A stretch of DNA of 64,000 nt from an uncultured Roseibium sp. (GTDB lineage: Bacteria > Pseudomonadota > Alphaproteobacteria > Rhizobiales > Stappiaceae), in NCBI RefSeq assembly GCF_947499295.1, contig NZ_CANMNP010000006.1, positions 124,001-188,000 on the forward strand. Direction: 5' to 3'. The notes under the pieces are model-generated. The model saw only the letters and a program-made list of their open reading frames with translations, was not told the DNA's origin and searched no databases. Below, one piece after another: positions 16,278-38,129 of this stretch. Positions within the stretch are counted from its first letter, which is position 1. The number at the start of each line of letters is the position of its first letter. Made by a program: the position numbers and the translations under genes.

Positions 16278-16309
16278 TTGTTGCGTCCTGTGTAGCAGAA
16301 TTGATTCTG

Positions 16310-16515
16310 ATTGTATGTATGCAGCTGATTGTATGGAGTGTGTTGCAGCAAAAATTGGAATTTTTGCCTCAGTTTTAAGCACCTTTCGGCCTAGGTTTTA
16401 TGCATTTGGTTTTGATTTTCGCACTTGTTGGATTTTCGTATTTTTCGCTTTTGATAGCGAAAATGATGTGCATACAATAGTGCGGTAAGTCAATAATTGT
16501 ATGGCAATTGTATGG
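16310..16515. promoter_or_regulatory. Five ATTGTATG sites and divergent promoter between the MocR gene and Nit1C
   Basis: ATTGTATG occurs at 16310-16317, 16328-16335, 16496-16503 and 16507-16514, and inverted as CATACAAT at 16471-16478. The first pair starts 18 bp apart near the regulator start; the last pair starts 11 bp apart just before nitB. A promoter toward nitB is plausible: TTGATA (16451-16456), 16-base spacer, TACAAT (16473-16478), with the inverted site lying on the -10 box. Direct repeats are the usual MocR operator form. Binding is inferred. Confidence 0.6.
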
Positions 16516-16536
16516 CCATAATAATAGGAGCATGAA

Positions 16537-17019: not shown

Positions 17020-17028
17020 GTCTCCGTG

Positions 17029-17055
17029 TGCCCGGCCGACCAATGCGGCCGGGCA
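17029..17055 (+). terminator. Attenuator-like hairpin between nitB and nitC
   Basis: TGCCCGGCCG (17029-17038) pairs perfectly with CGGCCGGGCA (17046-17055) over a 7-base loop, followed by AAAACTTTTCC. The T-run is short and displaced, so partial termination or 3' end protection of a nitB-only message is likelier than full termination. Confidence 0.5.
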
Positions 17056-17091
17056 AAACTTTTCCTGCCCACCCAAAGTCAGTAGCCAGCA

Positions 17092-19748: not shown

Positions 19749-20737
19749 CTGCACAGACTTGGCCGGACACATTGTCAGGGATTGTGAAACTGCTGCGGAA
19801 CGATCCGGGATTGATGGGCAAACGCGACATCGATGCATCTTGCAACATACTTGGCCTCAGCCAGACGGCGCCTGGCCGCCCTGGCGATGACACTGCCATT
19901 CTACCAGATGGCGACGACTATCTGCTGTTCGCCATTGAAGGCTTCATCAACGCTTTTGTCGAGGCAGATCCCTGGTTTGCCGGGTGGTGCAGCATCATGG
20001 TCAACATGTCCGACATTCTTGCAATGGGTGGGCGGCCTATTGCCGTGACGGATGCGATCTGGACGGCTGATACATCAAAGGCTGAACTGATATTGGAAGG
20101 AATGCGAGCAGCATCGCAAACATATGACATTCCGATAGTCGGCGGTCATACCAATTTCAGAGCGGGACAAAGCCAGCTCGCTGTTTCGATACTGGGCCGT
20201 GCAAAGAAGTTGATCACCAGCTTTGACGCAGCTCCCGGTGACAGGCTGATTGCGGCGATTGACCACCGGGGCGGATACAGGGCGCCTTTCAACAACTGGC
20301 AAGCGATTCTCGATGCACCGGCTGAACGGCTGCGCCAAGATACCGAGGTTTTGCCACTTATCGCCGAAGACGGTTTGTGTTCAGCCGGAAAAGACATTTC
20401 ACAAGGAGGCCTTGTCGGCACTGCGCTCATGCTTGCGGAGTGTTCAGGGGTTGCGATCAAGTTTTCGCTCGAGTGCATTCAACCGCCCCCGGGTGTCCCG
20501 CTTGCGCGCTGGTTGGTCACGTTTCCCTCCTTCGGTTTTCTTCTAAGTGCACCGGCATGCACATCGAGTGCGGTTGTTGCCAGATTTCAAGAAAGAGGCA
20601 TCTGGGCAGCCGACATTGGCGAAGTGTTTCAAGGAGCATCCGTCTCATTGTCCTATGAAGGAGAGGAAGACATTCTCTGGGACCATCGGCAGAGCCCCTA
20701 TCTCGGACTGAGGCCAAAGGAATTGGTCCATGCCTGA
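19745..20737 (+). CDS. nitF: AIR synthase-like (PurM-fold) protein of Nit1C (MSMEG_0567/Sll0787 C-terminal half)
   Basis: This 330-residue protein resembles the PurM/ThiL/SelD/HypE ATP-binding superfamily: GRPGDDTAILPDGDDYLLFAIEGF near the N-terminus, NMSDILAMGGRPIAVTDAIW, and VGGHTNFR. The superfamily activates carbonyl or amide oxygens with ATP. In Nit1C it is separate from the acetyltransferase but translationally coupled to it. It overlaps nitG by 8 bp. Reaction unknown. Confidence 0.88.
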   Translation: MTAQTWPDTLSGIVKLLRNDPGLMGKRDIDASCNILGLSQTAPGRPGDDTAILPDGDDYLLFAIEGFINAFVEADPWFAGWCSIMVNMSDILAMGGRPIAVTDAIWTADTSKAELILEGMRAASQTYDIPIVGGHTNFRAGQSQLAVSILGRAKKLITSFDAAPGDRLIAAIDHRGGYRAPFNNWQAILDAPAERLRQDTEVLPLIAEDGLCSAGKDISQGGLVGTALMLAECSGVAIKFSLECIQPPPGVPLARWLVTFPSFGFLLSAPACTSSAVVARFQERGIWAADIGEVFQGASVSLSYEGEEDILWDHRQSPYLGLRPKELVHA

Positions 20738-21041
20738 TCTCACATTCCGGATCCGATGGCCCAATGGTGACGAGGAGGCTTGTTATTCGCCATCCTCGAT
20801 AGTGCGCAACTTCTACCGGGAGGGCGAGACATATGAGCTCAATGAGTTCGTTTTGCTCAGCGAAAGAGCGTTCGAAGCGGCTAGTGAACGGGTTCGTGCC
20901 GTGCATGGGTATCCGTGTTCTCGTGCAGCGTCCCAGTTGGCAACTCTGAAGTCCAGATCCAACACCTTTGAAACCCATCCCGATGCAACCGTTACCTTTC
21001 TTCGGTTTGATGCCGGACTTGCAAGCAGGACATCGTCATGA
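20730..21041 (+). CDS. nitG: Nit1C small protein, MSMEG_0570 family
   Basis: This 103-residue protein has the family start MPDLTFRIRWPNGDEEACYSPSS and the phrase NEFVLLSERAFEAASERV. It has no membrane segment or known catalytic motif. It is found only with Nit1C clusters as far as I recall, and its position between nitF and nitH is conserved. AAGGAA precedes the ATG, which lies inside nitF; its stop overlaps the nitH start. Confidence 0.87.
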   Translation: MPDLTFRIRWPNGDEEACYSPSSIVRNFYREGETYELNEFVLLSERAFEAASERVRAVHGYPCSRAASQLATLKSRSNTFETHPDATVTFLRFDAGLASRTSS

Positions 21042-22309
21042 CCAGCAATACCTTCGTTTCCATCCCTGTTGTCATTGTGGGAGGTGGGCAGGCAGGCTTG
21101 TCCGCCAGCTACTGCCTCGGCAAGAAGAATATCGAGCATGTCGTATTGGAGCGGTATCGTTTTGCTCATCAATGGCGGGAGAACCGCTGGGACAGTTTCT
21201 GTCTGGTGACGCCGAACTGGCAGTGCAAGCTGCCGGACTTCCCTTATGCCGGCGACGATCCGCACGGATTCATGTTGAAAGATGAAATTGTCGCGTATCT
21301 GGAGGCTTTCGTTCGCAGTTTCGACCCTCCGCTCAAGGAAGGTGTCACGGTTACTGAAATCAGCAGACGTGACGATGGACGGTTTGTCGTTTGCACCAAT
21401 GAGCAAAACTATCTTGCTGAACAGGTGGTGATTGCATCGGGAGGTTATGATGTTCCAATCATTCCTTCCTTTGCTGAAGAGATCGACCCGTCCATTTTTC
21501 AGATCCAGGCCGGAGATTACAAATCACCTGCTCAGCTTCCGGATGGGAGTGTTCTCGTCGTCGGAGCCGGTCAGTCGGGTGTTCAGATCATGGAAGACCT
21601 GAAACTTGCTGGTCGGAAAGTGCATCTCGCAGTTGGTCCTGCGCCAAGGGCACCGCGCATGTACAGGGGGCGGGATGCCACCGACTGGCTTTACGATATG
21701 GGCCACTATGACCTGACTATCCGTGATCATCCTCAAGGTGAGGCAGTTCATGAGAAGACCAATCACTACCTGACGGGGCGTGATGGAGGGCATGAGATCG
21801 ACTTGCGGAAATTCGCACTCGACGGCGTCACTCTCTATGGAAGCATGGCCGGAGCATCCAGCTCCGGGGCTACGTTTGCGCAGGATTTGGAAAGAAACCT
21901 TGACGATGCCGATGAAAGTTATGTCGGTATTCGAAAGGCGATCGACGATTACATCGCCACAAACGGTATCGATGCGCCGGATGAAAAACCTTTTGAAAAA
22001 GTATGGCGACCTGGGCAGGAGCCGACACAGCTCGATTTTGACAAGGAGAACATCACGTCTCTTGTCTGGGCTATCGGTTTTCGACCGGACTATTCCTGGC
22101 TGAAAGTTGATGTCTTGAACACACGCGGGCGCCCGATCTACGACCGTGGAGTATGCGCTGTAAAGGGACTTTATTTTCTGGGACTGGGTTGGTTGAACAC
22201 CTGGGGGTCAGGTCGCTTTCTGGGCGTCGGTGACGATGCGCAGTATCTCAGTGAACAGATTGAGATCCTGCACGAAACCAACAGAGCCACGCTCAGCAAA
22301 GTATCCTGA
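21038..22309 (+). CDS. nitH: Flavin-dependent monooxygenase-like oxidoreductase, MSMEG_0569 family
   Basis: This 423-residue flavoprotein begins with an FAD-binding VVIVGGGQAGLSASYCL motif and has a second nucleotide-binding site VLVVGAGQSGVQIMEDL (about residues 170-186) for NAD(P)H, plus ENRWDSFCLVTPNW. It is the two-dinucleotide-fold layout of flavin-containing and Baeyer-Villiger-type monooxygenases. It is the last gene of the canonical Nit1C set. It may hydroxylate an amine or oxime precursor of the nitrile (inference). Confidence 0.92.
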   Translation: MTSNTFVSIPVVIVGGGQAGLSASYCLGKKNIEHVVLERYRFAHQWRENRWDSFCLVTPNWQCKLPDFPYAGDDPHGFMLKDEIVAYLEAFVRSFDPPLKEGVTVTEISRRDDGRFVVCTNEQNYLAEQVVIASGGYDVPIIPSFAEEIDPSIFQIQAGDYKSPAQLPDGSVLVVGAGQSGVQIMEDLKLAGRKVHLAVGPAPRAPRMYRGRDATDWLYDMGHYDLTIRDHPQGEAVHEKTNHYLTGRDGGHEIDLRKFALDGVTLYGSMAGASSSGATFAQDLERNLDDADESYVGIRKAIDDYIATNGIDAPDEKPFEKVWRPGQEPTQLDFDKENITSLVWAIGFRPDYSWLKVDVLNTRGRPIYDRGVCAVKGLYFLGLGWLNTWGSGRFLGVGDDAQYLSEQIEILHETNRATLSKVS

Positions 22310-24466: not shown

Positions 24467-26800
24467 TCATTGCCTCGGTGTAACAAGGTTCACCATCAGG
24501 CGGAATGCGCCGGGAACAAGTTTTTCCATTTGATGATGCAGGATCAGCGCGCAATGGACATGCCGCCCGCGGCCAATGTCTGCGGCCAGAAGCGAGCCTT
24601 TGTGTGGTGCTTCGCCAGGATCCGACATTTGCAGCAAGGGCACATATTGCGGATCCCATGATTTTGCAAAGTAAAGCCCGCGCTCCTTGTGCCAGCCGGA
24701 CCAGTCATCCGCCCCAATGACGTTGGGCTGGTTGAGAAGCGGATGCGTTGGGTCGAGGACGGTGACCTCAGCGGTTTCGTCAGTTACGCGCCAGCGCAGC
24801 GACGGTTGACCGATTTCAAGATGCGCCGGAGGCGTTGAGGCTGGCTGCCAGTTGTCCCATGGGCGATGGTAGAGCGTTAGCAGTGTGCCTCCGTTTGAAA
24901 CCCAGCGGTGAAGGGCAGGCAGCGCCTCAAACACGTCGGAGCGCGACTTCATTGCGAAAATTCCGATGACAATGGTGTCAAACCGGGAAAGCGCCGCATC
25001 GGTTTCAAGATCGTTGCGGGAGATTTGGCTTACGTTCAAGCCAAGCTGTTGGAGCCAATAGTCGACCCGGTCATTGCCACCGCCGGCATATCCAATTCGG
25101 GCAGATGTTGTGCCTGCGTCAACGACCCGTATCGAGACCTTTGCGGGCCGGCACAAGGATCTGGGCGGAAGATCATCCCGTGTGATGGTCTGAATGCTCA
25201 CGGCGGGTATATCGTCAAGGAGCAGAGGCAGATGATAAAGCCCCCCGGAGAGATTGCCCGGCGCTGCAACATCAAACCCGGTTTCGGTGCTGCTGACAGT
25301 CCAGCCCTCCAGAGCATCCAGCGTTTTTGAGGCGTCTAGCGACGAAACGTTGCCGAGCCTGATGGGCTTTTTTTTGACCGCGGCGGAAAGGTTCAAGACA
25401 ACTGAGGACGGTGTCAGGTCGGCACTTCGTTCAGGCAGGACTTGTGGCGGTATGTCGAACGGAATGAGGGTCCTGCTTTTGACGCCGTGAGTTGTCAGCT
25501 CGAGTTTCAGGCATGGCGCTTCCGGTTGATCGGGAAGATATCGGGAAGGGTAAGGATCGCTGATTGGGGCATTGACGGTTCGGATCGAAGTCAGGTCACC
25601 TTCCCAGTGATCTGGGAGGTGGAGCAACAGATCAAGTTGTTCGGCTTCGCCTTGATCGATTTCGGTCGAGACTGATGCCTGGTCGGTAGGCTTAAGGGTA
25701 TCTTTTTCAAGCCAGCCATAGCAATCAACCTGGGCTGCCACCCGAATAAGCGTTGAGAGCTGGCTTTCCTTTCGAGCAACCCTGTGGCTATGCACCGGCG
25801 AGATATCTGGAGCGGCTGCTCGCAATTGAGAGAGGGCAGCGCTTGCGTGTTTCAAAATGGCTGAAGCGTCGGGGAAGGCGCTTAATGCTGCTTCGATTTC
25901 CAACTGGGCTTTGGTCAGTTCAGGCGTGCTGCCAAGGTCTTTCAGAGTTGATGGCAGGCCAGCCTCCAGGGACGCTTTACCATCTGGCAAATTGCAGACT
26001 TTAAGGTGGAGCGGCCAATTGTGTTCGCGGCCTTTGGGAATCCATCGCCCCATGCCCTGGCTCTTGTGAAATGCCCGGCTTTGTTCACCGAGCTGAAAGA
26101 AGGTCGCGCCGGTGACGGGGTCGCGGCCATGGCCCGAGACTTCGATCGTAGCCGGTGGCGGTGGCAGGTCGTCATCATAAGACTGTCCCGCGCCCGACCA
26201 TGCAGGCAAATACATTTTGGAAACCTGCCACACCGGGTAACTGCTTTCGGTATAGGCAGGGTCGGCGGCCAGTTCCATTGCTTCCTCCGCCGCCTGGGTC
26301 ATGGCCCGATGGTGGCCGTGCTGTCCCGGCACATCAAGAAAGGTCGGGCAAATGATGTCAGGCCGTTCCTCACGCAGAATGTCGACGAAACGTTTCAAGG
26401 TGCGCTTGTGGTCCCAGGTCTGCAAGGTGTCGGTTCCCGACTTGGAAAACCCGAAATCGAAAATTGTGTCATCAGGTGTTTCCGACAGCCAATAGAGGCG
26501 CATGTTGAGAATGTCGGCAGCCTGCTCCATCTCCGCTGTACGCAGAACCCCGAGTGCGGCACCTGCCTCGCGCCCCATGATATTCTGTCCGCCTTCACCG
26601 CGTGTCGAACAGGCGTAGGAAAGATCTATGCCGTGGTTGAGGCTGAAACTTGCCAGCATCTCGGACGTCTCGTCGTCCGGATGAGCACCGGTATTCATGA
26701 AAGACACGACCGAGCGCAACGGGATCAGAGCGCGCCAGAGCTGAACCAGAAATGGGTCGTCCTTCTGCCGGGATATCCGGTGCAGATCAGTCAATGGCAT
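24467..26800 (-). CDS. Large PIG-L family deacetylase with C-terminal glutamine-amidotransferase-like domain
   Basis: This 777-residue protein has an N-terminal PIG-L/LmbE zinc deacetylase domain (about residues 30-260): FMNTGAHPDDETSEM (zinc-binding His and Asp, catalytic Asp), STRGEGGQNIMG and the third ligand in GQHGHHRAM. The middle looks beta-rich, and the C-terminal third (about 570-775) resembles a ThuA/GATase-like Rossmann domain. PIG-L enzymes remove acetyl groups from N-acetylglucosamine conjugates or mycothiol- and bacillithiol-like molecules. No signal peptide. Start 26800 follows GAGGA. Reads away from the ABC operon but adjoins its ROK regulator. Confidence 0.9.
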   Translation of the reverse strand: MPLTDLHRISRQKDDPFLVQLWRALIPLRSVVSFMNTGAHPDDETSEMLASFSLNHGIDLSYACSTRGEGGQNIMGREAGAALGVLRTAEMEQAADILNMRLYWLSETPDDTIFDFGFSKSGTDTLQTWDHKRTLKRFVDILREERPDIICPTFLDVPGQHGHHRAMTQAAEEAMELAADPAYTESSYPVWQVSKMYLPAWSGAGQSYDDDLPPPPATIEVSGHGRDPVTGATFFQLGEQSRAFHKSQGMGRWIPKGREHNWPLHLKVCNLPDGKASLEAGLPSTLKDLGSTPELTKAQLEIEAALSAFPDASAILKHASAALSQLRAAAPDISPVHSHRVARKESQLSTLIRVAAQVDCYGWLEKDTLKPTDQASVSTEIDQGEAEQLDLLLHLPDHWEGDLTSIRTVNAPISDPYPSRYLPDQPEAPCLKLELTTHGVKSRTLIPFDIPPQVLPERSADLTPSSVVLNLSAAVKKKPIRLGNVSSLDASKTLDALEGWTVSSTETGFDVAAPGNLSGGLYHLPLLLDDIPAVSIQTITRDDLPPRSLCRPAKVSIRVVDAGTTSARIGYAGGGNDRVDYWLQQLGLNVSQISRNDLETDAALSRFDTIVIGIFAMKSRSDVFEALPALHRWVSNGGTLLTLYHRPWDNWQPASTPPAHLEIGQPSLRWRVTDETAEVTVLDPTHPLLNQPNVIGADDWSGWHKERGLYFAKSWDPQYVPLLQMSDPGEAPHKGSLLAADIGRGRHVHCALILHHQMEKLVPGAFRLMVNLVTPRQ

Positions 26801-26816
26801 GGATGTGTCCTCAGGT

Positions 26817-27977
26817 TCAAGAAACGGTAATTGGAGTGAAGGCGCTGTGCAGGACCAGTGATGCCGCACCGAGCGTAGCGGTCAGGCGCCCACACGTGCC
26901 GCGTTGCAGCCTTGGCAGCAAATTGTCGTTGCGATTGGCAATCGACGCGGACGGAAGCGGGCAGTTTGAAATCAGGTGGTCGATGAGTTCAGGCGGCATG
27001 GCGCCACCCAGAATGATAGTCTGCGGGTCGAGCAGGTTTTCAAGCGTCAGAACTGCGTGTCCCAAAGCGTTTGCTGCTCTTTCAAGCCAGTCTGCCAATC
27101 GCTGATCTTGGGTGCTGAAGAGCTCTGAAATCCCGTCGAGATCTATCGGTCCCTTGCTGCCGATATATGTCTGAATGGAATCCCGGCTGAGCAAGCTTTC
27201 CAAGGGAGCAGGACCATTTGGCCCGGGGAAGGGAATATGGCCGACTTCTCCGGCATTTCCGAATGCCCCCGAAACAAGCCTGCCATCCTGGACAATGCCG
27301 AGGCCAAGTCCGCGGCCGAAATAAAGAAACGCATAGCAGCCGATGCCTTGTGCAACACCGGTCAGGCTTTCGGAAAGCGCGGCGGCATTCGCGTCGTTGG
27401 AGAGTTCGACAACGCCTCCGAGCGTCTCCTTGAAAAGGCTCTGTGCGTCGGTGTTTTCCCAGCCCTTGAGGTCGGAGCTGCGCCCAGAAAGACCCGTGTC
27501 ACCAAACGGTCCAGGCATGACGATGCCACTTCCAAGGATGGCATCCAGTGAAATGGGCGATGATGCGATCATGGTGTCGCGCAGCCGAAGCACATGATCG
27601 CATACGGCTGCGGGCGAATTGTCTTCAAGCGCCGTGCGCTGCGTGCTGATCTGTGCCCCGGAAAGATCGACAAGAGCGGTGAAGATGGCATCGGGCCTGA
27701 TTTCAACACCGAAAGCATAGGCGCCTTTGGGGTTCAGACCGTACAAGACGGCAGGCAGGCCACGACCCGAAACTCTTGTTCCCTTTTCTTCGATAAGGCC
27801 ATCTGCCAGCAATTCAGCGATTATGTTGGACGCGGCCTGTGTCGTCAGTCCGAGCGAACGGCCGATTTCGGCGCGGCCCATCGTGCCCGCGGCCTGAATG
27901 CTGCCAAGGACCGCCTGCCGGTTACGGTTCCGGCTACGCAACGGGTTGGACCCTCTGATTTGCGTCTCGACTTTCAT
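26817..27977 (-). CDS. ROK-family transcriptional regulator
   Basis: This 386-residue protein has an N-terminal winged helix (about residues 18-75, AEIGRSLGLTTQAASNIIAELLADGLIE) followed by a ROK sugar-kinase-like domain with IVMPGPF, SNDANAAAL and GRGLGLGIVQDG. The normal zinc site CxCGxxGC is replaced by HIPFPGPNGPAPLES, with no cysteines, so it must lack the classical zinc. ROK repressors such as Mlc, NagC and XylR respond to sugars or sugar phosphates. It is divergent from the ABC operon and is upstream of the PIG-L gene. Confidence 0.92.
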   Translation of the reverse strand: MKVETQIRGSNPLRSRNRNRQAVLGSIQAAGTMGRAEIGRSLGLTTQAASNIIAELLADGLIEEKGTRVSGRGLPAVLYGLNPKGAYAFGVEIRPDAIFTALVDLSGAQISTQRTALEDNSPAAVCDHVLRLRDTMIASSPISLDAILGSGIVMPGPFGDTGLSGRSSDLKGWENTDAQSLFKETLGGVVELSNDANAAALSESLTGVAQGIGCYAFLYFGRGLGLGIVQDGRLVSGAFGNAGEVGHIPFPGPNGPAPLESLLSRDSIQTYIGSKGPIDLDGISELFSTQDQRLADWLERAANALGHAVLTLENLLDPQTIILGGAMPPELIDHLISNCPLPSASIANRNDNLLPRLQRGTCGRLTATLGAASLVLHSAFTPITVS

Positions 27978-27997
27978 GTTCGATCTAATAACTCAAG

Positions 27998-28035
27998 AAA
28001 ATTGACAATTCAATTTATTTGACTTAATCAATTTT
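27998..28035. promoter_or_regulatory. Two TTGA-n-TCAA palindromes, candidate ROK operators
   Basis: In the gap between the ROK gene and the binding-protein gene, TTGA-CAAT-TCAA lies at 28002-28013 and TTGA-CTTAA-TCAA at 28019-28031, framed by AAAATTGA (27998-28005) and TCAATTTT (28028-28035). Paired AT-rich palindromes between a ROK gene and a divergent sugar operon are the expected operator form. Confidence 0.5.
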
Positions 28036-28100
28036 CATGTAGGCGGCAAAGACCGTCCCTCCAGACCAAGCGTGCACGCATCCAGACGGGAGCATCAGCA

Positions 28101-29354
28101 ATGTCAAAATACATGAAGCGCATGGCGCTGAGTGGGTTAACCGCTCTGGCCACCTTGTTCGGCAGTTCTGCAATGGCTGTCGAGATCGAATATTGGCAGT
28201 ATTTCTTCGACGCACGAGTTGATGCGATGGAGCAGCTGATCGAAAAATTCGAGGCCGCCAATCCCGACATCACAGTGAAGATGACCCATTTTCCGTATGC
28301 GGATTATCGCACCAAGGTTGCGGCGGCCATTCCGGCCGGCGAGGGACCGGACGTTGTGCAGCTTTTCTATGGCTGGCTAAACGACTACATCGAGGCGGAT
28401 CTCATCCAGCCGTTGCCGAAAGACCAGTTTGACCCGGCAGCCATCGATGCAGAATTTTTTCCGATGGTTCAGGCGATGAAGCGGGATGGCGCGTATTACG
28501 CTCTGCCGACCGCCGTGCGTTCTCTGGCACTTTTTTATAACACCCGGCTTTTTGATGAAGCGGGAATTGAAAACCCGCCCGAGACCCTTGAAGAACTTGT
28601 CGAAACCGCCAAGAAACTGACGAAGGTCGATGGTGCCGGCAATATCACACAGGTTGGCATTACCACCGGTATGACCGCGCAGGATCACCATTGGTGGCGC
28701 GAGGTCCTGGTGCGCCAGTTCGGTGGTGAGCCATACAAGGAAGACTACAAGACCGTAAACTACACGGATGATGCCGGGTTGGCCGCATTGAACTTCTATG
28801 TCGACCTGGAGAAAGAGCACAAAGTCACTCAGTCCGGTTTCATGGACGAGCCGCAGGCGGCCTTCAAGGGCAACCGCGCCGGCATGCACATCGACGGTTC
28901 TTTCAGGATCGGATCTCTGAACAAGGTTCGCGGCCTCAAATGGGGCGTTGCGGAACTTCCAGCCGGGCCCGATGGCGCGAGGTCGAATTATTCGTCTTAC
29001 TGGGTGAACGGCATCACCTCCAAGGCGGAAGGCGAGAAATACGACGCGGCCGTGAAGTTCCTGAAATACCTGACTTCCGACGAGGCAATGCAACTCTGGT
29101 TGGATGTTGTAGGTGAACTGCCGGCGAAGCCGTCGGTCGGTATGGTCGAGGCAAACGCGAATGATCCGACCTTCGGGCCGTTCATTCGTGGTCTGGCCTA
29201 CGCCAATACCACCAAATTTGCCAATGAATCAGCACAACGCCAGGCAATGGTGGACATGGTTGCAAGGATCGATATTGAAGGTCAGGACCCGGCAGAGAGC
29301 CTGGCTGCAGCTGCTGCTGAAGAGCAGAAAGTCCTCGACGACTACTACAAGTAA
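28101..29354 (+). CDS. ABC sugar transporter extracellular solute-binding protein (family 1)
   Basis: This 417-residue protein has a signal peptide (MSKYMKRMALSGLTALATLF, cleavage after SSAMA) and the family 1 sugar-binding layout: EIEYWQYFFDARVDAMEQLIEKFEAANPDI, FYGWLNDYIEAD, AALPTAVRSLALFYNTRLFDEAGI-like middle and FLKYLTSDEAMQLWL near the end. GGGAG precedes the ATG. It is the first gene of the operon, followed by a clear attenuator/terminator. Ligand likely a saccharide or a sugar derivative. Confidence 0.93.
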   Translation: MSKYMKRMALSGLTALATLFGSSAMAVEIEYWQYFFDARVDAMEQLIEKFEAANPDITVKMTHFPYADYRTKVAAAIPAGEGPDVVQLFYGWLNDYIEADLIQPLPKDQFDPAAIDAEFFPMVQAMKRDGAYYALPTAVRSLALFYNTRLFDEAGIENPPETLEELVETAKKLTKVDGAGNITQVGITTGMTAQDHHWWREVLVRQFGGEPYKEDYKTVNYTDDAGLAALNFYVDLEKEHKVTQSGFMDEPQAAFKGNRAGMHIDGSFRIGSLNKVRGLKWGVAELPAGPDGARSNYSSYWVNGITSKAEGEKYDAAVKFLKYLTSDEAMQLWLDVVGELPAKPSVGMVEANANDPTFGPFIRGLAYANTTKFANESAQRQAMVDMVARIDIEGQDPAESLAAAAAEEQKVLDDYYK

Positions 29355-29370
29355 GACCGTCTAAGCGAAC

Positions 29371-29399
29371 GGACTGCCGCCTCGCGGCAGTCCTTTTTT
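29371..29399 (+). terminator. Intrinsic terminator/attenuator after the binding-protein gene
   Basis: GGACTGCCGC (29371-29380) pairs perfectly with GCGGCAGTCC (29384-29393) over a CTC loop and is followed by six T. This is a textbook intrinsic terminator placed after the first gene, so read-through would set the lower permease level. Confidence 0.85.
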
Positions 29400-29420
29400 C
29401 CAACGATCGCACGGTGCGGC

Positions 29421-30320
29421 ATGTCTGCCTACAAGAACCTCTCCATCAGGCAAAAGCAGATTGTATGGGCATGGCTGTTTCTGGCGATCCCTGTCCTGTT
29501 TTATGTGGTGATCCGTTTTTATCCGACGGGCACCGCTTTCGTGATTTCCTTTCAGGAGTGGAATCTCCTTGGCACGCGCACCTGGACGGGGCTGGAAAAC
29601 TACGAGAAGCTCTGGAACGATCCGGTTTTCTGGAAGGTTTTCCGTAACACCTTTGCCTATCTTTTGCTCGGTACACCGGTCTCGCTGGTGATCAGCTTCG
29701 TGATCGCATATCACCTCGACAAGACACGTTTTCTGCACGGCTTCCTGCGGATGCTATATTTCCTGCCGTTCATGACATCAGCGGTTGCCATGGCGTGGGT
29801 GTGGAGGTGGTTCTATCAGCCTGTTCCGATCGGCCTTTTCAACAATTTGCTGGCTTCGATCGGCATCCCGCAAATCGAATTCCTGAATTCGACAACCAAT
29901 GCCTTGCCGTCCATTCTGGCGCCTGCAATCTGGGCGGGCCTCGGATTTCAGGTCATTATTTTCATGGCGGGGCTGCGCGCAATTCCAGGAAGCTACTATG
30001 AGGCAGCCAAGATCGACGGTGTCGGCTGGTGGACGGTGCTCACCCGCATCACGTTGCCGCTCCTGAAACCCACGATCGTATTCATCGTCGTCTTCTCTTC
30101 AATCGGTTTCCTTCGGATTTTCGACCATGTCTTCAACATGACGACAAACAATCCGGGCGGGCCGCTCAATTCCACGAAACCGTTGGTTCTGATGATCTAC
30201 GAAACGGCATTCAGCAGTTTTAACATGGGCTATGCCGCAGCACAGACCGTCGTCCTCTTTCTTATCCTGCTGGTGGTCAGCCTTCTTCAGCTTTGGATCC
30301 TGAAGGGGGACAACACGTGA
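29421..30320 (+). CDS. ABC sugar transporter permease (first subunit)
   Basis: This 299-residue membrane protein has about six spans and the cytoplasmic EAA loop YYEAAKIDGVGWWTVLTRITLPLLKP (about residues 193-218), the docking site of the ATPase. It belongs to the MalF/UgpA-type family. Its ribosome binding site is weak (ACGGTGCGGC), suggesting low translation relative to the binding protein. The stop TGA overlaps the GTG start of the next permease. Confidence 0.92.
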   Translation: MSAYKNLSIRQKQIVWAWLFLAIPVLFYVVIRFYPTGTAFVISFQEWNLLGTRTWTGLENYEKLWNDPVFWKVFRNTFAYLLLGTPVSLVISFVIAYHLDKTRFLHGFLRMLYFLPFMTSAVAMAWVWRWFYQPVPIGLFNNLLASIGIPQIEFLNSTTNALPSILAPAIWAGLGFQVIIFMAGLRAIPGSYYEAAKIDGVGWWTVLTRITLPLLKPTIVFIVVFSSIGFLRIFDHVFNMTTNNPGGPLNSTKPLVLMIYETAFSSFNMGYAAAQTVVLFLILLVVSLLQLWILKGDNT

Positions 30321-31204
30321 GCCTTGCGACAAACCCTGGCCAGCTGCCACGTGCTTCGGTCAATGCGGTCTTTGCGACCCAGACCAAGAAACCTGCCAAT
30401 ATGGGTCAGATCTTGCGCTGGATGGTTCTGTTTCTCGGCGGCATTTTGATGATCGCACCGATCGTCTACATGATCTCGACGTCGCTGAAGTGGCCCCATG
30501 AAGTCTACAACGTCAATCTGATCCCGGAAGAGCCAACGATCGAGAACTACACTTATGTTCTTGAAGACGGACGCTTTTATCTCTGGTTCGTGAATTCCAT
30601 CATCATTGCACTGATTACAACGGTTTCGAATCTCTTCTTCGACAGCCTTGTCGGGTATACCTTGTGTAAATTCCGCTTTCCCGGCCGCTACATCGTCTTC
30701 ATCGCCATCTTGTCGACGCTGATGATCCCGACGGAGATGCTGGTCATTCCCTGGTATACGATGAGCCAGGCTTTTGGCTGGCTCGACAGCTATTGGGGCA
30801 TCATGTTCCCGGGCCTGATGACGGCTTTCGGCACGTTCTTGATGAAGCAGTTTTTTGAGAGCGTTCCGAATGATTTTCTCGAGGCCGCCCGCATCGACGG
30901 TCTGAATGAATTCCAGATCTGGTGGAAAATTGCCATGCCATTGGTCAAGCCGGCCTTGGCGGCTCTGGCGATTTTTGTCTTCCTGGGCAATTGGACTGCT
31001 TTTCTCTGGCCGTTGATCGTCACAAATTCCGTCGAGATGTACACGGTCCCGGTCGGTCTTTCAGGCTTTGGAGATGAAGTTGACGTTGCCTGGGAACTGA
31101 TCATGACCGGGGCGGCGATTTCCACGATCCCGACACTTATCGTCTTTCTGATATTCCAGCGCTTCATTATTCGAGGTGTCGTTATGGCGGGGCTCAAGGG
31201 ATGA
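30317..31204 (+). CDS. ABC sugar transporter permease (second subunit)
   Basis: This 295-residue MalG/UgpE-type permease has six membrane spans and an EAA loop FLEAARIDGLNEFQIWWKIAMPLVKP. The start is GTG at 30317, overlapping the stop of the upstream permease, with AGGGGGA just before it. The first 35 residues are a cytoplasmic extension. Its end overlaps the lyase gene start by four bases (ATGA). Confidence 0.92.
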   Translation: MSLATNPGQLPRASVNAVFATQTKKPANMGQILRWMVLFLGGILMIAPIVYMISTSLKWPHEVYNVNLIPEEPTIENYTYVLEDGRFYLWFVNSIIIALITTVSNLFFDSLVGYTLCKFRFPGRYIVFIAILSTLMIPTEMLVIPWYTMSQAFGWLDSYWGIMFPGLMTAFGTFLMKQFFESVPNDFLEAARIDGLNEFQIWWKIAMPLVKPALAALAIFVFLGNWTAFLWPLIVTNSVEMYTVPVGLSGFGDEVDVAWELIMTGAAISTIPTLIVFLIFQRFIIRGVVMAGLKG

Positions 31205-32697
31205 CCGGACCAGTCAAGGATACTTCTCAATTTCCTGATCCTGTCTACAAGGAAACCGTGCTTTCAGACCTCTTTGAGGGTGTGAAGGCAAACTATGCCG
31301 GGCACATGGCTGCCATCAACAAGGCCCATCTGGTGATGCTGTCGGAGACAGGCATTTTGCAGCCGGCGCAGGTGAAACCGCTCGCCTTTGCATTGTCCGA
31401 GATCGACGATGATGTCGATGTGGCGTCGCTGGTCTACACCGGCGAACATGAAGATTATTTCTTTTACGTTGAAGCGTTGCTGCGCCGGAAGCTCGGTGAC
31501 CTTGGGGGCATGCTCCATACCGCAAGATCACGCAACGACATGGACCATACCTTGTTCAAGCTGGCGTTGAGAACGCGCATGGACAAGTTATGGGGGGAAG
31601 CTGAGAACCTCGCCCGAACATTCATCAACAAGGCCGAGCGGGAAGCCGAAACCCTGATTGTTGCCTATACCCATGGCCAACCCGCTCAACCATCCACTTT
31701 CGGTCACTATCTGTGTGCGGCGCTGGAAGTTCTCCTTAGGGATATGGAGCGTCTCGCACTTGCCATGGATACGATCGATCATTGCCCGATGGGCGCTGCC
31801 GCGATCACAACGACTGGCTTTCCGATAGACCGGCAGCGAACAGCCGCTCTACTTGGTTTCGAAGCTCCTGTGATGAACTCTTATGGTTGCATCGCGTCCG
31901 TTGACTACGTGACCGGTCTCTATTCGGCCCTGAAACTCGTTTATGTCCATCTCGGCCGTCTGATCCAGGATCTGGCATTCTGGTCTTCTTTCGAGGTCGG
32001 CCAGCTTTATGTGCCCAACAGCTTTGTGCAGATCAGCTCGATCATGCCGCAGAAACGCAATCCGGTTCCAATCGAGCATATGCGCCACTTGTCGGCCGTC
32101 ACGGCAGGGCGATGCGACGTTATGGTCGACACAATGCGAAACACACCCTTCACTGACATGAATGATAGCGAAGGCGAGGTGCAGCAAGCCGGATACGCGA
32201 CTTTTGAGAGCGGGAGCCGGGTCCTGAGATTGCTGGCTGCGTTCGTTTCTGCGGCCCGGATCAATGAAGATCGGGTGCGCAAAAACGCAGATGCCGCCTG
32301 TGTCACCATTACCGAATTGGCTGACACGCTTGTGCGTGACGAGGGATTGAGCTTCCGGCAAGCCCATGAGATCGCGGCCGCAACGTCCAGGGGCGTACTT
32401 GCAGAAGAAACTGCGCTGAGAGACGGGTTCAACCATTTCAAAGCTGCTTTTGCCCAGGAAACCGGTCGTGATCCGAACCTGAGTTCCGATGGCTACAAAA
32501 CCGCAGTATCTCCCGAGAGATTCGTTTCCTGCCGTGATCGGCTGGGCGGGCCTGCACCGCAGGCATTGCGTCATGCCCTTGTGAGTTATCGCGACCAGCT
32601 GTCCGCGCTTGCAAGCCGGCAGAGCGCGCGCAGACAGCGCTACGATGCAGCTGCAACCGCTCTTGACCAAACCTTTTCATCGCTTCTGGAGACTTGA
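31201..32697 (+). CDS. Argininosuccinate lyase / fumarase-superfamily enzyme embedded in the ABC operon
   Basis: This 498-residue protein belongs to the argininosuccinate lyase branch of the aspartase/fumarase superfamily: MLHTARSRNDMDHTLFKLALR (ASL motif HT[GA]RSRND), YTHGQPAQP and the catalytic loop QISSIMPQKRNPVPIEH. The superfamily performs reversible beta-elimination of fumarate or acetylenic products from amino- or guanidino-succinates. True argH normally sits in arginine biosynthesis; here it lies inside a sugar ABC operon, coupled by ATGA to the permease, so it may act on an imported N-succinyl- or aspartate-linked conjugate (inference). Confidence 0.88.
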   Translation: MTGPVKDTSQFPDPVYKETVLSDLFEGVKANYAGHMAAINKAHLVMLSETGILQPAQVKPLAFALSEIDDDVDVASLVYTGEHEDYFFYVEALLRRKLGDLGGMLHTARSRNDMDHTLFKLALRTRMDKLWGEAENLARTFINKAEREAETLIVAYTHGQPAQPSTFGHYLCAALEVLLRDMERLALAMDTIDHCPMGAAAITTTGFPIDRQRTAALLGFEAPVMNSYGCIASVDYVTGLYSALKLVYVHLGRLIQDLAFWSSFEVGQLYVPNSFVQISSIMPQKRNPVPIEHMRHLSAVTAGRCDVMVDTMRNTPFTDMNDSEGEVQQAGYATFESGSRVLRLLAAFVSAARINEDRVRKNADAACVTITELADTLVRDEGLSFRQAHEIAAATSRGVLAEETALRDGFNHFKAAFAQETGRDPNLSSDGYKTAVSPERFVSCRDRLGGPAPQALRHALVSYRDQLSALASRQSARRQRYDAAATALDQTFSSLLET

Positions 32698-32701
32698 ACC
32701 C

Positions 32702-33757
32702 ATGGCGAACCTGTCATTGCACAAGCTGACCAAGTCCTATGGGAAGGTTGAAGTCCTGCACGGCATCGACCTGGATATCAAGGATGGCGAGTTTGTTGTT
32801 TTCGTCGGCCCGTCCGGCTGCGGCAAATCCACCAGTCTGCGCATGATCGCCGGTCTTGAAGACATAACCGCCGGCGAAATTCGGATCGGAGACCGCGTGG
32901 TCAATAATCTGGAGCCGAAGGACCGCGACATTGCGATGGTCTTCCAGAACTACGCCATCTATCCGCATATGACTGTTCGCAAGAACATTGCTTTTGGCCT
33001 CTGGACGTCGAGCCTGAGCAAGGCAGAAAAGGCAAAGCGGATTGAGGATGTTGCCCGCATACTGGACATGACCGACTTGTTGGAGCGAAAGCCCTCGCAG
33101 CTTTCGGGTGGTCAGCGTCAGCGTGTTGCAATCGGTCGTGCCATGGTCCGCCAGCCGGCCGTGTTTTTGTTCGACGAACCGCTGTCCAATCTCGATGCGC
33201 AATTGCGGACCCAGATGCGGCTGGAAATCAAGAAGCTTCATCAGCAGGTCGGCAATACAATTATTTTTGTGACGCACGATCAGGTGGAAGCCATGACGCT
33301 TGCGGACCGAATTGTGATTATGAAAGACGGCCATATTCAGCAGGTCGGAACGCCGGAAGAGGTCTTCTATTCGCCCGCAAATACTTTTGTGGCCCAATTT
33401 ATCGGCGCGCCATCCATGAACATGATCAATATCACCGGCGGCGGCGAGGAGATAAGGCTGAAGAGCGGTGGCAGCATCAATCCAGGCAAGACAACCCAGG
33501 ACGGGCGTGAGATGCTTTTGGGTGTTCGGCCGGATGACCTGACCATTGAGACAGATAACCCGATTGTCACCGGTAAGGTGGTCGTTCGCGAACCACTCGG
33601 TTCTGAGACCCTGATTTATGTGAACGGACCTGACGGCGAGATCGTCGCGAAAGTGCCGGGCAAGAGCGGCGTCTTGGTGGGTGATGATGTCAAGCTCGGA
33701 GCAGCGCCGGAAACGCTGCATTTTTTCGACACTGAAACCGGAGCCGCGTTGTTGTGA
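32702..33757 (+). CDS. ABC sugar transporter ATP-binding protein (UgpC/MsmK type)
   Basis: This 351-residue ATPase has Walker A GPSGCGKST (residues 36-44), the Q-loop in VFQNYAIYPHM, signature LSGGQRQR (about 133-140), Walker B VFLFDEPLSNLD, a switch histidine in VTHDQ and a C-terminal TOBE-like domain (LLGVRPDDL). Start 32702 follows GGAGA; the frame extends further upstream inside the lyase gene but without a start signal. It powers the permease pair upstream. Confidence 0.95.
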   Translation: MANLSLHKLTKSYGKVEVLHGIDLDIKDGEFVVFVGPSGCGKSTSLRMIAGLEDITAGEIRIGDRVVNNLEPKDRDIAMVFQNYAIYPHMTVRKNIAFGLWTSSLSKAEKAKRIEDVARILDMTDLLERKPSQLSGGQRQRVAIGRAMVRQPAVFLFDEPLSNLDAQLRTQMRLEIKKLHQQVGNTIIFVTHDQVEAMTLADRIVIMKDGHIQQVGTPEEVFYSPANTFVAQFIGAPSMNMINITGGGEEIRLKSGGSINPGKTTQDGREMLLGVRPDDLTIETDNPIVTGKVVVREPLGSETLIYVNGPDGEIVAKVPGKSGVLVGDDVKLGAAPETLHFFDTETGAALL

Positions 33758-34647
33758 TGCTGCACTCGGACACATCAGCCCAGGTCTTGTGCATCGGGCG
33801 GATCTATTGCGATCTGGTATTTGCCGGCATTCCCAGAATGCCGAGCCTTGGGTCCGAAGTCTTCGCTGAAGGTGTTTCACTGCATGCAGGTGGCGGTGCA
33901 TTCAATACGGCTGCCGCCTTTGCCGCGCTCGGCTGGCAAACTGCGCTAAGCGGCGTGTTACCGGCAGCCCCTTTTGAGACAGTGATCCTGCAGGAAGGAC
34001 GGGAAAGAGGGCTGGACCTTTCTACGTGCACACCGGCCGCCCCCAATGCTTCGCCACAAATTACTGTTGCGATACCTCTTCAAGGGGACAGATCCTTTTT
34101 GAGCCAGAAATCCGGTGCCGCCTTTCCGGCTTTGAACTCGTCTGCTCCTGGCTTCAGGTCAATCAGACACTTGCATATCGGCGAGCTGAAAAGCCTCTGT
34201 GAGAACCCTGATGTGCTTGGAGTCGCCCGTCAGGCTGGCTGGAGTATTTCGCTTGATTGTGGTTGGGACGACGCATTGTTGGCACGGGGCGCAGAGGTGT
34301 CCAGCCTCGTTCAGGCCGTTGATGTTTTCCTGCCGAACCAGCGCGAATTCGCAACATTGGAAGCTTCAGGTCTTCAGACCGGCGGCGGGCCGCTTGTTGT
34401 TGTCAAGGAAGGTGCGTCCGGTGCAACGGCAATTCGCGCCGAAGGGTCTGTCCATGCTGCAGCAAACAGAGTTGAGGTGATTGATGCCACTGGCGCAGGT
34501 GATGCCTTTAATGGCGGCTTCCTGTCTGCCTGGCTAGCCCGGGAAGATGTGGCTTCCTGTCTGGCAATCGGCAATCGGTGCGGTGCTCAAGCGGTCCAGT
34601 CTCCCGGTGGCGCGGCCTGGTCCGTCGGCAACGAGCTGGCGTCCTGA
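33754..34647 (+). CDS. PfkB-family carbohydrate kinase
   Basis: This 297-residue protein has the PfkB/ribokinase signatures: an N-terminal GRIYCDLVF and GGGAFNTAAAFAALGW, and the C-terminal IDATGAGDAFNGGFLSAWL with catalytic Asp and anion hole. It starts at GTG 33754, overlapping the ATPase stop, or at the adjacent ATG 33757. It is the last gene of the operon and presumably phosphorylates the imported sugar or the sugar released by the lyase/deacetylase. Substrate not determinable. Confidence 0.9.
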   Translation: MMLHSDTSAQVLCIGRIYCDLVFAGIPRMPSLGSEVFAEGVSLHAGGGAFNTAAAFAALGWQTALSGVLPAAPFETVILQEGRERGLDLSTCTPAAPNASPQITVAIPLQGDRSFLSQKSGAAFPALNSSAPGFRSIRHLHIGELKSLCENPDVLGVARQAGWSISLDCGWDDALLARGAEVSSLVQAVDVFLPNQREFATLEASGLQTGGGPLVVVKEGASGATAIRAEGSVHAAANRVEVIDATGAGDAFNGGFLSAWLAREDVASCLAIGNRCGAQAVQSPGGAAWSVGNELAS

Positions 34648-34676: not shown

Positions 34677-35581
<905 letters not shown>

Positions 35582-35585
<4 letters not shown>

Positions 35586-36493
35586 TGCGCAACCTTCCTG
35601 GATCGGGGCAATGCCTGCAGCACATCACCGATACTTTGCTCTATAGGGGGGAACTTCAGTCCGAAGGTATTCTGGAATTTGTCCATGCTGAGTACGGTCC
35701 GCAATGGTCTTGTGGCAGGAGTTGCGAATTCGGTCGTGGCAGCTGCGCTGACCTGACAGGTTGGGCCGTACAATTCACCGGAGAGGGCGACTACCCTTTT
35801 TGCCCACTGAAAGCGGGACAGGGGCTCCGGGGCCGCCAGATGATAGGTGCCGGACAGGTTGGTCCAATCCGTGTTGTCGAGCTGGCGGATAAGATCTGCC
35901 AATGACTTTGCCAGGTCCAGTGCCGACGTTGGATTGCCGACCTGATCGGCCACGATACGAAGTGGACGGCCTTCGACAGCCATAGAAAGCAGCCAGGAAA
36001 CGAAGTTCGATCCGAAAGGCGAATAGAGCCATGCCGTTCGAAGCACGATGTGTTTCGGGTTGAGACGGCTAACGCTGTTCTCGCCTGCCAGCTTCGAAAT
36101 GCCGTAGGTATTGACCGGGTTTGTGCGATCAGTCTCGTCATACGGTGATCGTTTTTCACCATCGAAAACGTAGTCGGTTGAGATGTGAATGATCGGTATG
36201 TCGTGAACTGCGGATATCTGAGCAAGGTTTCCGGCACCGACGCCATTCACGCTGTGTGCGTCATCTGGAAAGCGTTCGGCATCGTCGACGCTGGTATAGG
36301 CAGCGAGATTCAGGACGAAGTCCGGCCGCAGCCGGTCAATGATCGCGCTACAGCTTTGAGCCTTGGTGACGTCCAGCGCGTGTCTGTCGAAGAAACAGAA
36401 CTCAAGGTCGGTTGCAGCCGCAGAGGCAACTTTCAAAGACTTTGAAAGTTGGCCGTTTTTGCCGGCAACCAGAACCCTGGTTCTCACTGTCAT
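35582..36493 (-). CDS. rmlD: dTDP-4-dehydrorhamnose reductase
   Basis: This 303-residue short-chain-type reductase has the NAD(P)-binding [30 protein letters not shown] and the YGISKLAGE catalytic Tyr/Lys motif. It performs the last step to dTDP-L-rhamnose. Start 36493 (MTVRTRVLV) overlaps the rmlB stop by four bases; the longer frame to 36622 lies inside rmlB and is rejected. Confidence 0.95.
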
Positions 36494-37551
36494 GCTGTGG
36501 CTCTGCCAGAAGCGGACAGCGCCGGGATTTGATGGGGTAGATAGTTGGCCTCGGGTTTCTGGTTCAGATACCAGCGAATGGTATTCTCGATACCCTCCTT
36601 GAAGTCGACTTCCGGCTTCCACCCAGTTGCGACTTCGACCTTTTGCGGGTCAACGGCATAGCGCCGGTCATGCCCAGGCCGGTCAGTGACGAAACGGATC
36701 AGATGTTCGTGTGGAGCCCTTTCGGGAACGAGTTTGTCGAATGTCCGGCAAATCAGACGAACCAGGTCGAGATTGCAGACTTCGTTGCGGGCTCCAATCG
36801 CATAGGTTTGTCCCGGTCTCCCACTTTTCAGAACCATTTGAAGAGCGCGAGCATGGTCCGAAACGTGAATCCAGTCCCGGGTCTGATGTCCGTCGCCGTA
36901 AACCGGAAGCGTCCAACCGTTCCTTGCATGCTTGCAGACCAGCGGGATCAGCTTTTCGGGATATTGTTCAGGGCCGTAATTGTTGGTGCAGTTGGTAATG
37001 ATCGACGGGATTCGATATGTGCGGCACCAGGCGCGAACCAAGTGATCCGACGCGGCCTTGCTGGCCGCGTATGGTGATGAGGGATTGTAAGGTGTGTCTT
37101 CCTTGAAAATACTGTTGCCGCTTAGGTCTGCAAGATCTCCGAACACTTCGTCCGTCGAGACGTGCAGGAACCGGAAAGACTCTGCTTCTGAGCTGTTGAG
37201 CGATGCGAGGAATTTTCTGATTGCCTCCAGCAGCACCATCGTACCCTTGATGTTCGTTTCCACGAAGTCGGCTGCATTCTCGATCGATCGGTCGACATGG
37301 CTTTCAGCGGCAAGGTTCAAAACGGCAGATGGGTTATAGCGTCGGAGAACTCGATCAACCTTCCCGAAATTACAGATGTCCGCCTGAACGAGGGTGTAGC
37401 GTGGGTTCCGGCTGAGCTCGGCAACGGCCTTGGTGTTGGCCGCGTAGGTGAGTTTGTCGAGCACGATGATTTCATCATCGGAATGTTCAAGCAGGTGTCG
37501 GCACAAAGCTGTGCCAATAAAGCCGGCTCCTCCGGTGATCAGGATAGGCAT
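36490..37551 (-). CDS. rmlB: dTDP-glucose 4,6-dehydratase
   Basis: This 353-residue extended SDR has GGAGFIGTALCRHLL, HVSTDEVFGDL and the active-site YAASKAASDHLV, then NNYGPEQYPEKLIP, all hallmarks of RmlB. It converts dTDP-glucose to the 4-keto-6-deoxy sugar. Its start lies inside the end of rmlC (13-bp overlap). Order rmlC-B-D-A on the minus strand. Confidence 0.97.
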   Translation of the reverse strand: MPILITGGAGFIGTALCRHLLEHSDDEIIVLDKLTYAANTKAVAELSRNPRYTLVQADICNFGKVDRVLRRYNPSAVLNLAAESHVDRSIENAADFVETNIKGTMVLLEAIRKFLASLNSSEAESFRFLHVSTDEVFGDLADLSGNSIFKEDTPYNPSSPYAASKAASDHLVRAWCRTYRIPSIITNCTNNYGPEQYPEKLIPLVCKHARNGWTLPVYGDGHQTRDWIHVSDHARALQMVLKSGRPGQTYAIGARNEVCNLDLVRLICRTFDKLVPERAPHEHLIRFVTDRPGHDRRYAVDPQKVEVATGWKPEVDFKEGIENTIRWYLNQKPEANYLPHQIPALSASGRATA

Positions 37552-38129
37552 TCGGACACCTCGGTCATGTCAGCAAACATAAATACAGGTGGCAGGGCAG
37601 TGAACTTGGGAAGGTCTCTGTCCCTGTCAGACAGGAAGGCCGGGTCGTTGCCGAGTTGCCAGTCTATCGCCAGGTCCGGGTCGTCAAACCGTATGCCACG
37701 CTCGCATTGCGGGGCGTAGTTCGCATCGACCTTGTAAAGAACTTCTGTATTTGGCGAGAGCGTCGAAAACCCATGGGCAAATCCGGCCGGGACAAACAGC
37801 TGATGCATGTTTTGAGCACTCAACACTCTGGTGACATGCGCGCCAAAGGTTGGTGACCCATACCGAATGTCCACCGCGACATCCAAGATTGATCCGCTGG
37901 AACAGCGAACGAGTTTAGCCTGTGCATATGGAGGCGCTTGAAAGTGGAGGCCACGGACAGTTCCTTGCCGCCTGGAAAAGGACAAGTTGTCCTGGACAAA
38001 ATCGGCAGCCACACCAAACGGCTCAAGAGCGGATCTGCTATAGGTCTCCGCAAAATGTCCGCGAGCATCCTGGTGACAGGCAGGCACAATGTGCAACACC
38101 TCGGCAATCTCTGTCGGCATCGCTTTCAT
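37539..38129 (-). CDS. rmlC: dTDP-4-dehydrorhamnose 3,5-epimerase
   Basis: This 196-residue cupin has the RmlC catalytic histidine region GTVRGLHFQAPPYAQAKLVRC, GSILDVAVDIRYGSPTFG and FVPAGFAHGFSTLS. It epimerises the keto-sugar before reduction by RmlD. The ATG at 38129 overlaps the stop of the upstream glycosyltransferase; ATG 38120 is possible. Slightly longer tail than typical. Confidence 0.95.
   Translation of the reverse strand: MKAMPTEIAEVLHIVPACHQDARGHFAETYSRSALEPFGVAADFVQDNLSFSRRQGTVRGLHFQAPPYAQAKLVRCSSGSILDVAVDIRYGSPTFGAHVTRVLSAQNMHQLFVPAGFAHGFSTLSPNTEVLYKVDANYAPQCERGIRFDDPDLAIDWQLGNDPAFLSDRDRDLPKFTALPPVFMFADMTEVSECLS

Follow-up and report, generated by a model that had tools for sequence, protein, structure and literature searches.

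The closest described counterparts of the gene cluster considered here, eight genes at positions 24467–34647 of a 64,000-nucleotide stretch of DNA from an uncultured Roseibium sp. (contig NZ_CANMNP010000006.1; hereafter the window), each share some part of it: a lyase of the aspartase/fumarase superfamily to which argininosuccinate lyase (ArgH) belongs, a PIG-L-family amidase, or genes of amino-sugar use. Operons for glucosamine (GlcN) or N-acetylglucosamine (GlcNAc) use (nag) resemble some relatives of the cluster in having a ROK regulator, a kinase and a GlcN-6-phosphate (GlcN-6-P) deaminase, but we know of no nag operon with a lyase or a PIG-L amidase. Lyases of this class typically free fumarate from O- or N-succino groups, and the 2SL pathway (yxe loci), as described in the same source, combines an uptake cluster, a deacetylation and a superfamily lyase that frees fumarate from a succino adduct (PMC9706529). 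That adduct, however, is one of a thiol, and neither a sugar kinase nor a GlcN deaminase is part of the locus as described there, the sole basis of our comparison. N-acylglucosamine cores are the substrates of the PIG-L enzymes known in 2014, among which Bca acts on bacillithiol conjugates (PMC4101496); BshA builds bacillithiol on L-malate, and Bca cleaves its conjugates to CysSR (PMC4360819). Bca and Mca are thus described as PIG-L proteins that hydrolyse N-acylglucosamine amides with release of cysteine conjugates (PMC4101496, PMC4360819), but producers are presumed to recycle the GlcN part, which here would be degraded.

Among the literature matches listed, judged by title and the start of the abstract, none describes this gene set or the breakdown of bacillithiol by non-producers, which agrees with a sequence-only reading of the window that had known of no pathway with such a set. 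We propose, with a probability of roughly 0.55, that the cluster is a bacillithiol-scavenging pathway in which the lyase would eliminate fumarate from GlcN-malate. The fuller claim, that alphaproteobacteria import foreign bacillithiol and convert it to cysteine, GlcN-6-P and fumarate by means of a new ArgH-superfamily malyl-glycoside (C–O) lyase, is in our judgement about evenly balanced between right and wrong.

The lyase, the amidase and their cassette

The lyase gene (31201–32697, plus strand) encodes a protein with PF00206 (143 bits) and PF14698 (35 bits) matches, which by its PF00206 domain and catalytic signature residues belongs to the aspartase/fumarase superfamily and is here a candidate GlcN-malate (or bacillithiol) lyase releasing fumarate. 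The source genome contains five PF00206 proteins, namely fumC, a housekeeping argH, purB, a pcaB-like protein and the window lyase. Against TIGR00838 (ArgH) the housekeeping argH scores 614 bits and the window lyase 299, formally passing the cut-off of 279.5; because the separate argH of the same genome scores far higher, the window gene was rejected as the biosynthetic enzyme, and the second argH that the sequence-only reading had wanted looked for is indeed present. The PRK06705 model gave 310 bits against a cut-off of 883. The best solved structure is ArgH 2e9f (209.6 bits), and chains of EDDS lyase from Chelativorans BNC1 (6g3d, 6g3h and others), an ArgH relative with another substrate, match at 189–193 bits (189 bits over residues 37–461).

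With ArgH the lyase shares the catalytic residues RSRND, TH, SSxMPQK and N as well as the superfamily. In an alignment of lyase sequences from which redundancy was not removed, R109, S110, R111, N112, D113, T157 and H158 are kept in 75/75 rows and S279, S280, K285 and N287 in 73/73. It differs from ArgH in its place in a sugar-importer operon, in the genome having another argH, in Val289, which stands at the place of the Asp in KNPD, and in the motif YxKDxQEDK, which we take to be the arginine-side motif of ArgH: the housekeeping enzyme carries YSKDMQEDKE, whereas in all 73 lyase rows covering the motif, the window included, Tyr and Gln are replaced by Asp319 and Glu324. Two distant relatives from Haladaptatus (loci L086 and L124), set aside as 35–37% identical, likewise have Asp at 319. 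Losing arginine-side residues and acquiring acidic ones would fit a leaving group that is an amino sugar. EDDS lyase has Asp290 and Tyr320 near its substrate (in the account of PMC12363623), and of its residues R112, N113, Q159, N288, D290 and Y320 only R112, N113 and N288 are kept here; Q159 aligns with His158, D290 with Val289, and Y320 with Met320 or, by the ArgH motif, with Asp319. The two enzymes are related, but since these substrate-near residues differ, an EDDS-lyase function was rejected. The predicted structure of the lyase is a monomer with a mean pLDDT of 82.3, and the active-site reading was made independently of it. In public annotation 22 of the 27 closest plasmid relatives are called argininosuccinate lyase, most of them as argH, which is probably a systematic misannotation, presumably by way of the TIGR00838 cut-off.

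The PIG-L/LmbE-family amidase gene (24467–26800, minus strand) lies in an open reading frame (ORF) that extends to 26869; its likelier start is ATG 26800, with ACCTGAGGACACATCC just upstream, giving about 777 amino acids, and the protein is proposed to cleave the N-acyl (cysteinyl) bond of bacillithiol. It matches PF02585 above the cut-off (66.7 bits, ORF residues 60–198) and is the sole PF02585 match found in the genome. The segments AHPDDE (62–67) and QHGHHR (183–188) are invariant across 22 aligned PIG-L sequences, and with them the metal site of HxDD and distal His (H63, D65, D66, H184, H186 and H187). The protein differs from Bca and Mca in being some 600 residues longer after the domain, and its scores against the Mca, MshB and BshB2 equivalog models (36.2, 28.6 and 27.1 bits) lie below the cut-offs of 277, 224 and 195. 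A search of solved structures with the single sequence and a phage search with PIG-L gave no match, and a PIG-L profile retrieved four sequences from the PDB: two diacetylchitobiose deacetylases (E 7e-06), one uncharacterized protein and, weakly, CTC-445.2.

The gene set is a conserved alphaproteobacterial cassette, and its recurrence in other genomes and plasmids argues against a chance assembly. A scan of genome contigs gave 29 lyase loci, with that of Labrenzia sp. THAF82 (96%) as the top match and others in Rhodobacteraceae and relatives, Kordiimonadaceae, Emcibacteraceae, other alphaproteobacteria and a Rhizobiaceae metagenome-assembled genome. In overlapping genome samples, with the source genome included, the lyase occurs in 24/297 genomes of the order (E 1e-80) and, at E 1e-75, in 6/398 of the phylum and 13/385 of the class, one of the class matches (genome G738) being a 36% relative. 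Its distribution is patchy, since four other listed genomes of the window's own genus in the order sample lack it. Forty-one plasmid records carry it at E 1e-60, 27 of them, all alphaproteobacterial, with at least 49.9% identity, and for 15 of the 41 the annotated region was examined.

Gene order was compared across 83 stretches, the window among them; one of these (L139) has no lyase, and at 95% lyase identity the other 82 form 79 groups, of which 77 have a lyase of at least 47% identity and the remaining two are those of Haladaptatus. The neighbourhood search that the sequence-only reading had suggested thus found, of the importer genes, the solute-binding protein (SBP) in 68 of the 77 groups, a permease in 70 and the ATPase in 66. 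PIG-L occurs in 57 groups, PfkB in 36 and a ROK relative in 52, although other ROK proteins can also satisfy the ROK criterion; all these counts are lower bounds because some loci end at contig ends. In the class sample a PIG-L relative (E 1e-30) occurs in 10/385 genomes, and each of the ten is one of the 13 lyase genomes, the source genome being counted (hypergeometric 5e-16 with the own genome left out and relatedness ignored). Later genome searches covered 36 of the 39 other lyase genomes, leaving out G738 and, on short contigs, G026 and G172; PIG-L was found in 25 of the 36, near the lyase on the same contig in 24 and on another contig in G685. All 21 plasmids with PIG-L are also in the list of lyase plasmids.

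The composition of the cassette varies. In three loci of one genus (L117, L119 and L120) PIG-L and the lyase are divergent neighbours with no CUT1 set, and in L117 a peptide-type importer (SBP_bac_5 and a permease) follows PIG-L, which suits a pseudo-peptide substrate; the ORFs in L119 are similar by size only. Among the 20 groups without PIG-L, three (L033, L044 and L057) are cut too near to show it. The Shinella and Bosea loci consist of regulator, importer and lyase only, and the lyase may therefore act first, or on imported GlcN-malate itself. In L074, L076 and L085, which have no PIG-L, an MBL-fold protein, AidB-lactonase-like in L085 although below the cut-off, is encoded close to the beginning of the transporter operon and is a possible non-homologous replacement for the amidase. 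A second copy of PIG-L, 42% identical to the window protein, is found near the first on the opposite strand in L067 (G202) and L068 (G259).

Probable glucosamine and thiol genes beside the cassette in relatives

The sugar is most likely glucosamine, since genes for GlcN-6-P deaminase of two families, NagB and NagB-II-like, accompany the cassette in 13 of the 77 groups. In Paroceanicella (L079) the operon ends with a ROK protein and nagB, Loktanella (L143) has nagB directly after PIG-L, and in G259 nagB follows PfkB; these NagB-I proteins pass TIGR00502 in L079 and L143 and fall slightly under it in L068. In Roseomonas (L084) a ROK protein without helix-turn-helix (HTH) is accompanied by a SIS protein that scores best against NagB-II (313 bits), and further NagB-II-like genes occur in L034, L036, L042, L076, L078, L109, L113 (one ORF off), L122 and L125. 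As a control, 28 of the 36 lyase genomes have a NagB-II-like gene anywhere at E 1e-50, and six of them (G639, G855, G598, G100, G245 and G183, three of which share a genus) have it no more than 6 kb from the lyase, the expected number being about 0.07. At the place of the kinase, L084 and L123 have a ROK protein without HTH whose best models, fructokinase and GlcNAc kinase, stay below their cut-offs. In G685 a glucokinase (228 bits, cut-off 225) follows the lyase-distant PIG-L (L139); the NagB-II-like gene in its vicinity (212 bits) has murQ beside it, so that this case may be one of cell-wall recycling, and it is not among the 13.

A released thiol as the acyl part is more weakly pointed to than glucosamine. 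An EamA-family gene, Pfam-confirmed for one, occurs in 28 of the 57 PIG-L groups and in 0 of the 20 others, after PIG-L in one batch of the gene orders read, and in L054 a GST-like gene comes after it. In Roseinatronobacter EamA and PIG-L are followed by a protein annotated as cysteine dioxygenase family, whose nearest PDB sequences (E 9e-14) are dioxygenases of cysteine and of 3-mercaptopropionate. L031 and L034 carry thiol dioxygenases of another type after the kinase gene (56% identical to each other); the L031 protein, the one of the pair searched, is nearest mercaptosuccinate dioxygenase (E 2e-8), and in L034 the NagB-II-like gene comes next. Pfam and NCBIfam gave no match for the three thiol-dioxygenase candidates. 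Aminobacter (L080 and L144) and Loktanella have an Lrp regulator and a SufS-like pyridoxal phosphate enzyme (58% identical between the two genera; 143 bits, cut-off 475) on opposite sides of the cluster, and Aminobacter L080 has in addition a protein homologous to the Blh persulfide-dioxygenase domain (561 of 625 bits). Plasmid searches with two of the thiol dioxygenases gave no further clustered case among the matches listed (8/8 and 25/51 records); the lyase plasmids among these matches are those of Roseinatronobacter, the source of a query, and Pseudorhodobacter, in which the lyase and a 33% relative are about 320 kb apart.

Proposed bacillithiol scavenging and its alternatives

Cysteine, glucosamine and, from a fumarate-releasing lyase, a malyl unit would together make up bacillithiol (Cys-GlcN-malate), the molecule known to us that unites all three. 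A search of 37 of the 40 cluster genomes in the genome samples, the source genome among them, gave no BshC (PF10079), although the controls B. subtilis, Thermus composti and Deinobacterium chartae were positive, and any bacillithiol used would therefore be foreign. Polaribacter MED152 is of marine origin. This Bacteroidetes strain produces N-Me-bacillithiol (PMC6282198).

In the proposed route, for which we infer all substrates, which way EamA transports and which of the two cleavages comes first, the CUT1 ABC (ATP-binding cassette) importer would take in bacillithiol (Cys-GlcN-L-malate) as such, as the disulfide or as an S-conjugate, and the PIG-L amidase would split it into GlcN-malate and cysteine (or CysSR), in the manner of Bca and Mca with thiol conjugates. 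The ArgH-like lyase would then remove fumarate from the malyl unit by C–O beta-elimination, leaving free glucosamine for phosphorylation to GlcN-6-P by PfkB (in some relatives by a ROK protein), and a deaminase, NagB-II-like and on another contig here, would yield fructose-6-phosphate and ammonia. In relatives the cysteine may be moved or oxidised by the products of accessory genes, which encode an EamA-family transporter, a thiol dioxygenase or a SufS-like enzyme, and the ROK protein is the likely sensor. The scheme of the sequence-only reading, which had uptake, deacetylation, beta-elimination of the amino-acid part and sugar phosphorylation act on an N-acylated or N-succinyl/aspartyl-linked sugar conjugate, is retained as likeliest in its steps, with the elimination releasing fumarate, and revised in its linkage: because of the glucosamine and, more weakly, the thiol neighbours in relatives, an N-acyl-glucosaminyl O-malate appears more likely.

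Several observations weigh against bacillithiol scavenging. To our knowledge no superfamily member cleaves a malyl glycoside. Sulfur neighbours (thiol dioxygenases or SufS-like enzymes, the GST-like gene uncounted) are few, in 5 of the 77 groups, and although all five have PIG-L they were found by inspection with no preset test, so that 5/57 against 0/20 is too few to count alone; moreover the Blh homologue of A. aminovorans (L144) is split over two ORFs, and Aminobacter MSH1 (L140) has neither the SufS-like nor the Blh-like gene. The deaminase is commoner without PIG-L (7/20 groups) than with it (6/57), the NagB-II matches of ten loci (241–315 bits, with GlmS the next best model) all lie below the cut-off of 430, and the deaminase gene of L109 lies on the opposite strand, two ORFs away. 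Among the neighbours read at the window locus there is neither a nagB nor a cysteine gene, NagB-I was not found in its genome, and the NagB-II-like gene there (266 bits) is on another contig (C15), beside an ORF that by reading only is NagA-like. The window PfkB reached no sugar-specific model, and PfkB is missing from 24 of the 57 PIG-L groups, in some through contig ends and in most with no kinase recognised. Finally, four loci of one genus (L072, L073, L075 and L077) have a lyase orthologue (56–57%) beside an FMN-dependent dehydrogenase and GntR with no transporter. An SDR lies further on in these four loci, where the substrate is perhaps another.

ArgH chemistry is a C–N elimination, which is also what the closest solved relatives, ArgH and EDDS lyase, normally carry out, and the substrate could thus be an N-succino-glucosamine, for instance the Heyns product that fructose forms with aspartate, from which the lyase would release fumarate and glucosamine by C–N cleavage for the kinase and NagB, with PIG-L stripping an acyl group from some variants. 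The deaminase linkage, commoner in loci without PIG-L, fits this equally well, as do the Shinella and Bosea loci that pair importer and lyase with no PIG-L; yet there is no easy role in it for PIG-L, which is confined to lyase genomes in the class sample, and the thiol dioxygenases and SufS-like enzyme are left with none. We regard this as unlikely, if the least so of the alternatives. Retaining PIG-L but not the thiol leads to another N-acyl-glucosaminyl malate, such as GlcNAc-malate, with the sulfur genes incidental. The PIG-L family includes BshB, a GlcNAc-malate deacetylase in the accounts of PMC4101496 and PMC4360819, and the PIG-L profile lies nearest diacetylchitobiose deacetylases in the PDB, but the EamA-family gene in half of the PIG-L loci (28/57) and the sulfur genes in several lineages weigh against this reading, and we consider such a substrate improbable.

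Hardly more credible than GlcNAc-malate, and by very little, is uptake of a conjugated amino sugar that bears a side group of succinyl type, for instance an S-succino thiol, whose C–S bond the lyase would cleave as in 2SL. A superfamily lyase with S-succino activity is described from a different operon (PMC9706529), and the L031 neighbour is nearest mercaptosuccinate dioxygenase; this would require a compound of which we know no example, however, and the same facts are explained by bacillithiol. It is very improbable that the lyase is a paralogue with genuine argininosuccinate lyase function in arginine metabolism, lying here by chance, given the far better separate argH, the replaced Tyr and Gln and the tight link to a sugar importer, even though it passes TIGR00838 and most of its relatives bear the name. 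Two further ideas were rejected: a muramic-acid-type ether on chemistry, as a lactyl ether has no second carboxylate able to yield fumarate, and a fructosyl-amino-acid kinase route, as PfkB only weakly matches fructoselysine 6-kinase (53.5 of 247 bits) and the neighbours point to GlcN.

Arrangement of the locus and its significance

All eight genes are present and open, by ORFs and by domain and family profiles, in the arrangement that the sequence-only reading gave: the lyase sits within the sugar ABC operon with PfkB last, and the amidase lies beyond a divergent ROK gene. The minus-strand PIG-L and ROK genes face a plus-strand operon of SBP, two permeases, lyase, ATPase and PfkB. The ROK-family regulator (26817–27977, minus strand) matches PF00480 (111 bits) and has an N-terminal HTH whose models fall slightly under their cut-offs. 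The 123 bp between it and the SBP gene hold a candidate operator (27989–28039) of overlapping inverted repeats (27989–28026 and 27994–28039), and a promoter search of this region gave no match, the inverted repeats being all that was found.

The operon opens with the CUT1-type extracellular SBP (28101–29354, plus strand; PF13416 143 bits, PF01547 137 bits), followed on the same strand by permease 1 (29421–30320; PF00528, top NCBIfam model UgpA, under its cut-off) and permease 2 (30317–31204; PF00528), which starts at GTG 30317 within a listed ORF from 30293 and overlaps permease 1 by 4 nt. The ATG of the lyase and the stop of permease 2 overlap by 4 nt, which makes the translational coupling claimed by the sequence-only reading plausible. 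The UgpC/MalK-type ATPase (32702–33757, plus strand; NF008653, 491 bits, cut-off 432) has its likelier start at ATG 32702 in a listed ORF from 32609, and the PfkB-family kinase (33754–34647, plus strand; PF00294, 114 bits), a proposed glucosamine kinase, overlaps it by 4 nt, or by 1 nt if it starts at ATG 33757.

Beyond the cluster on one side (19745–22309) lie genes for an AIR-synthase-like protein, a small protein and an FAD oxidoreductase, which presumably resemble the Nit1 cluster (MSMEG_0567/0569/0570), and on the other (34677–38129, minus strand) four genes convergent with the kinase gene, which we take to resemble those of dTDP-rhamnose synthesis (rmlA, rmlD, rmlB and rmlC). In Terrarubrum L085 nadA, L-aspartate oxidase and nadC lie one gene beyond the cluster (13723–17107).

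If bacillithiol is indeed the substrate, thiol turnover, sulfur cycling and amino-sugar use would be linked by one dedicated pathway. The fumarase superfamily would then gain a new reaction, and a class of argH annotations would be corrected.

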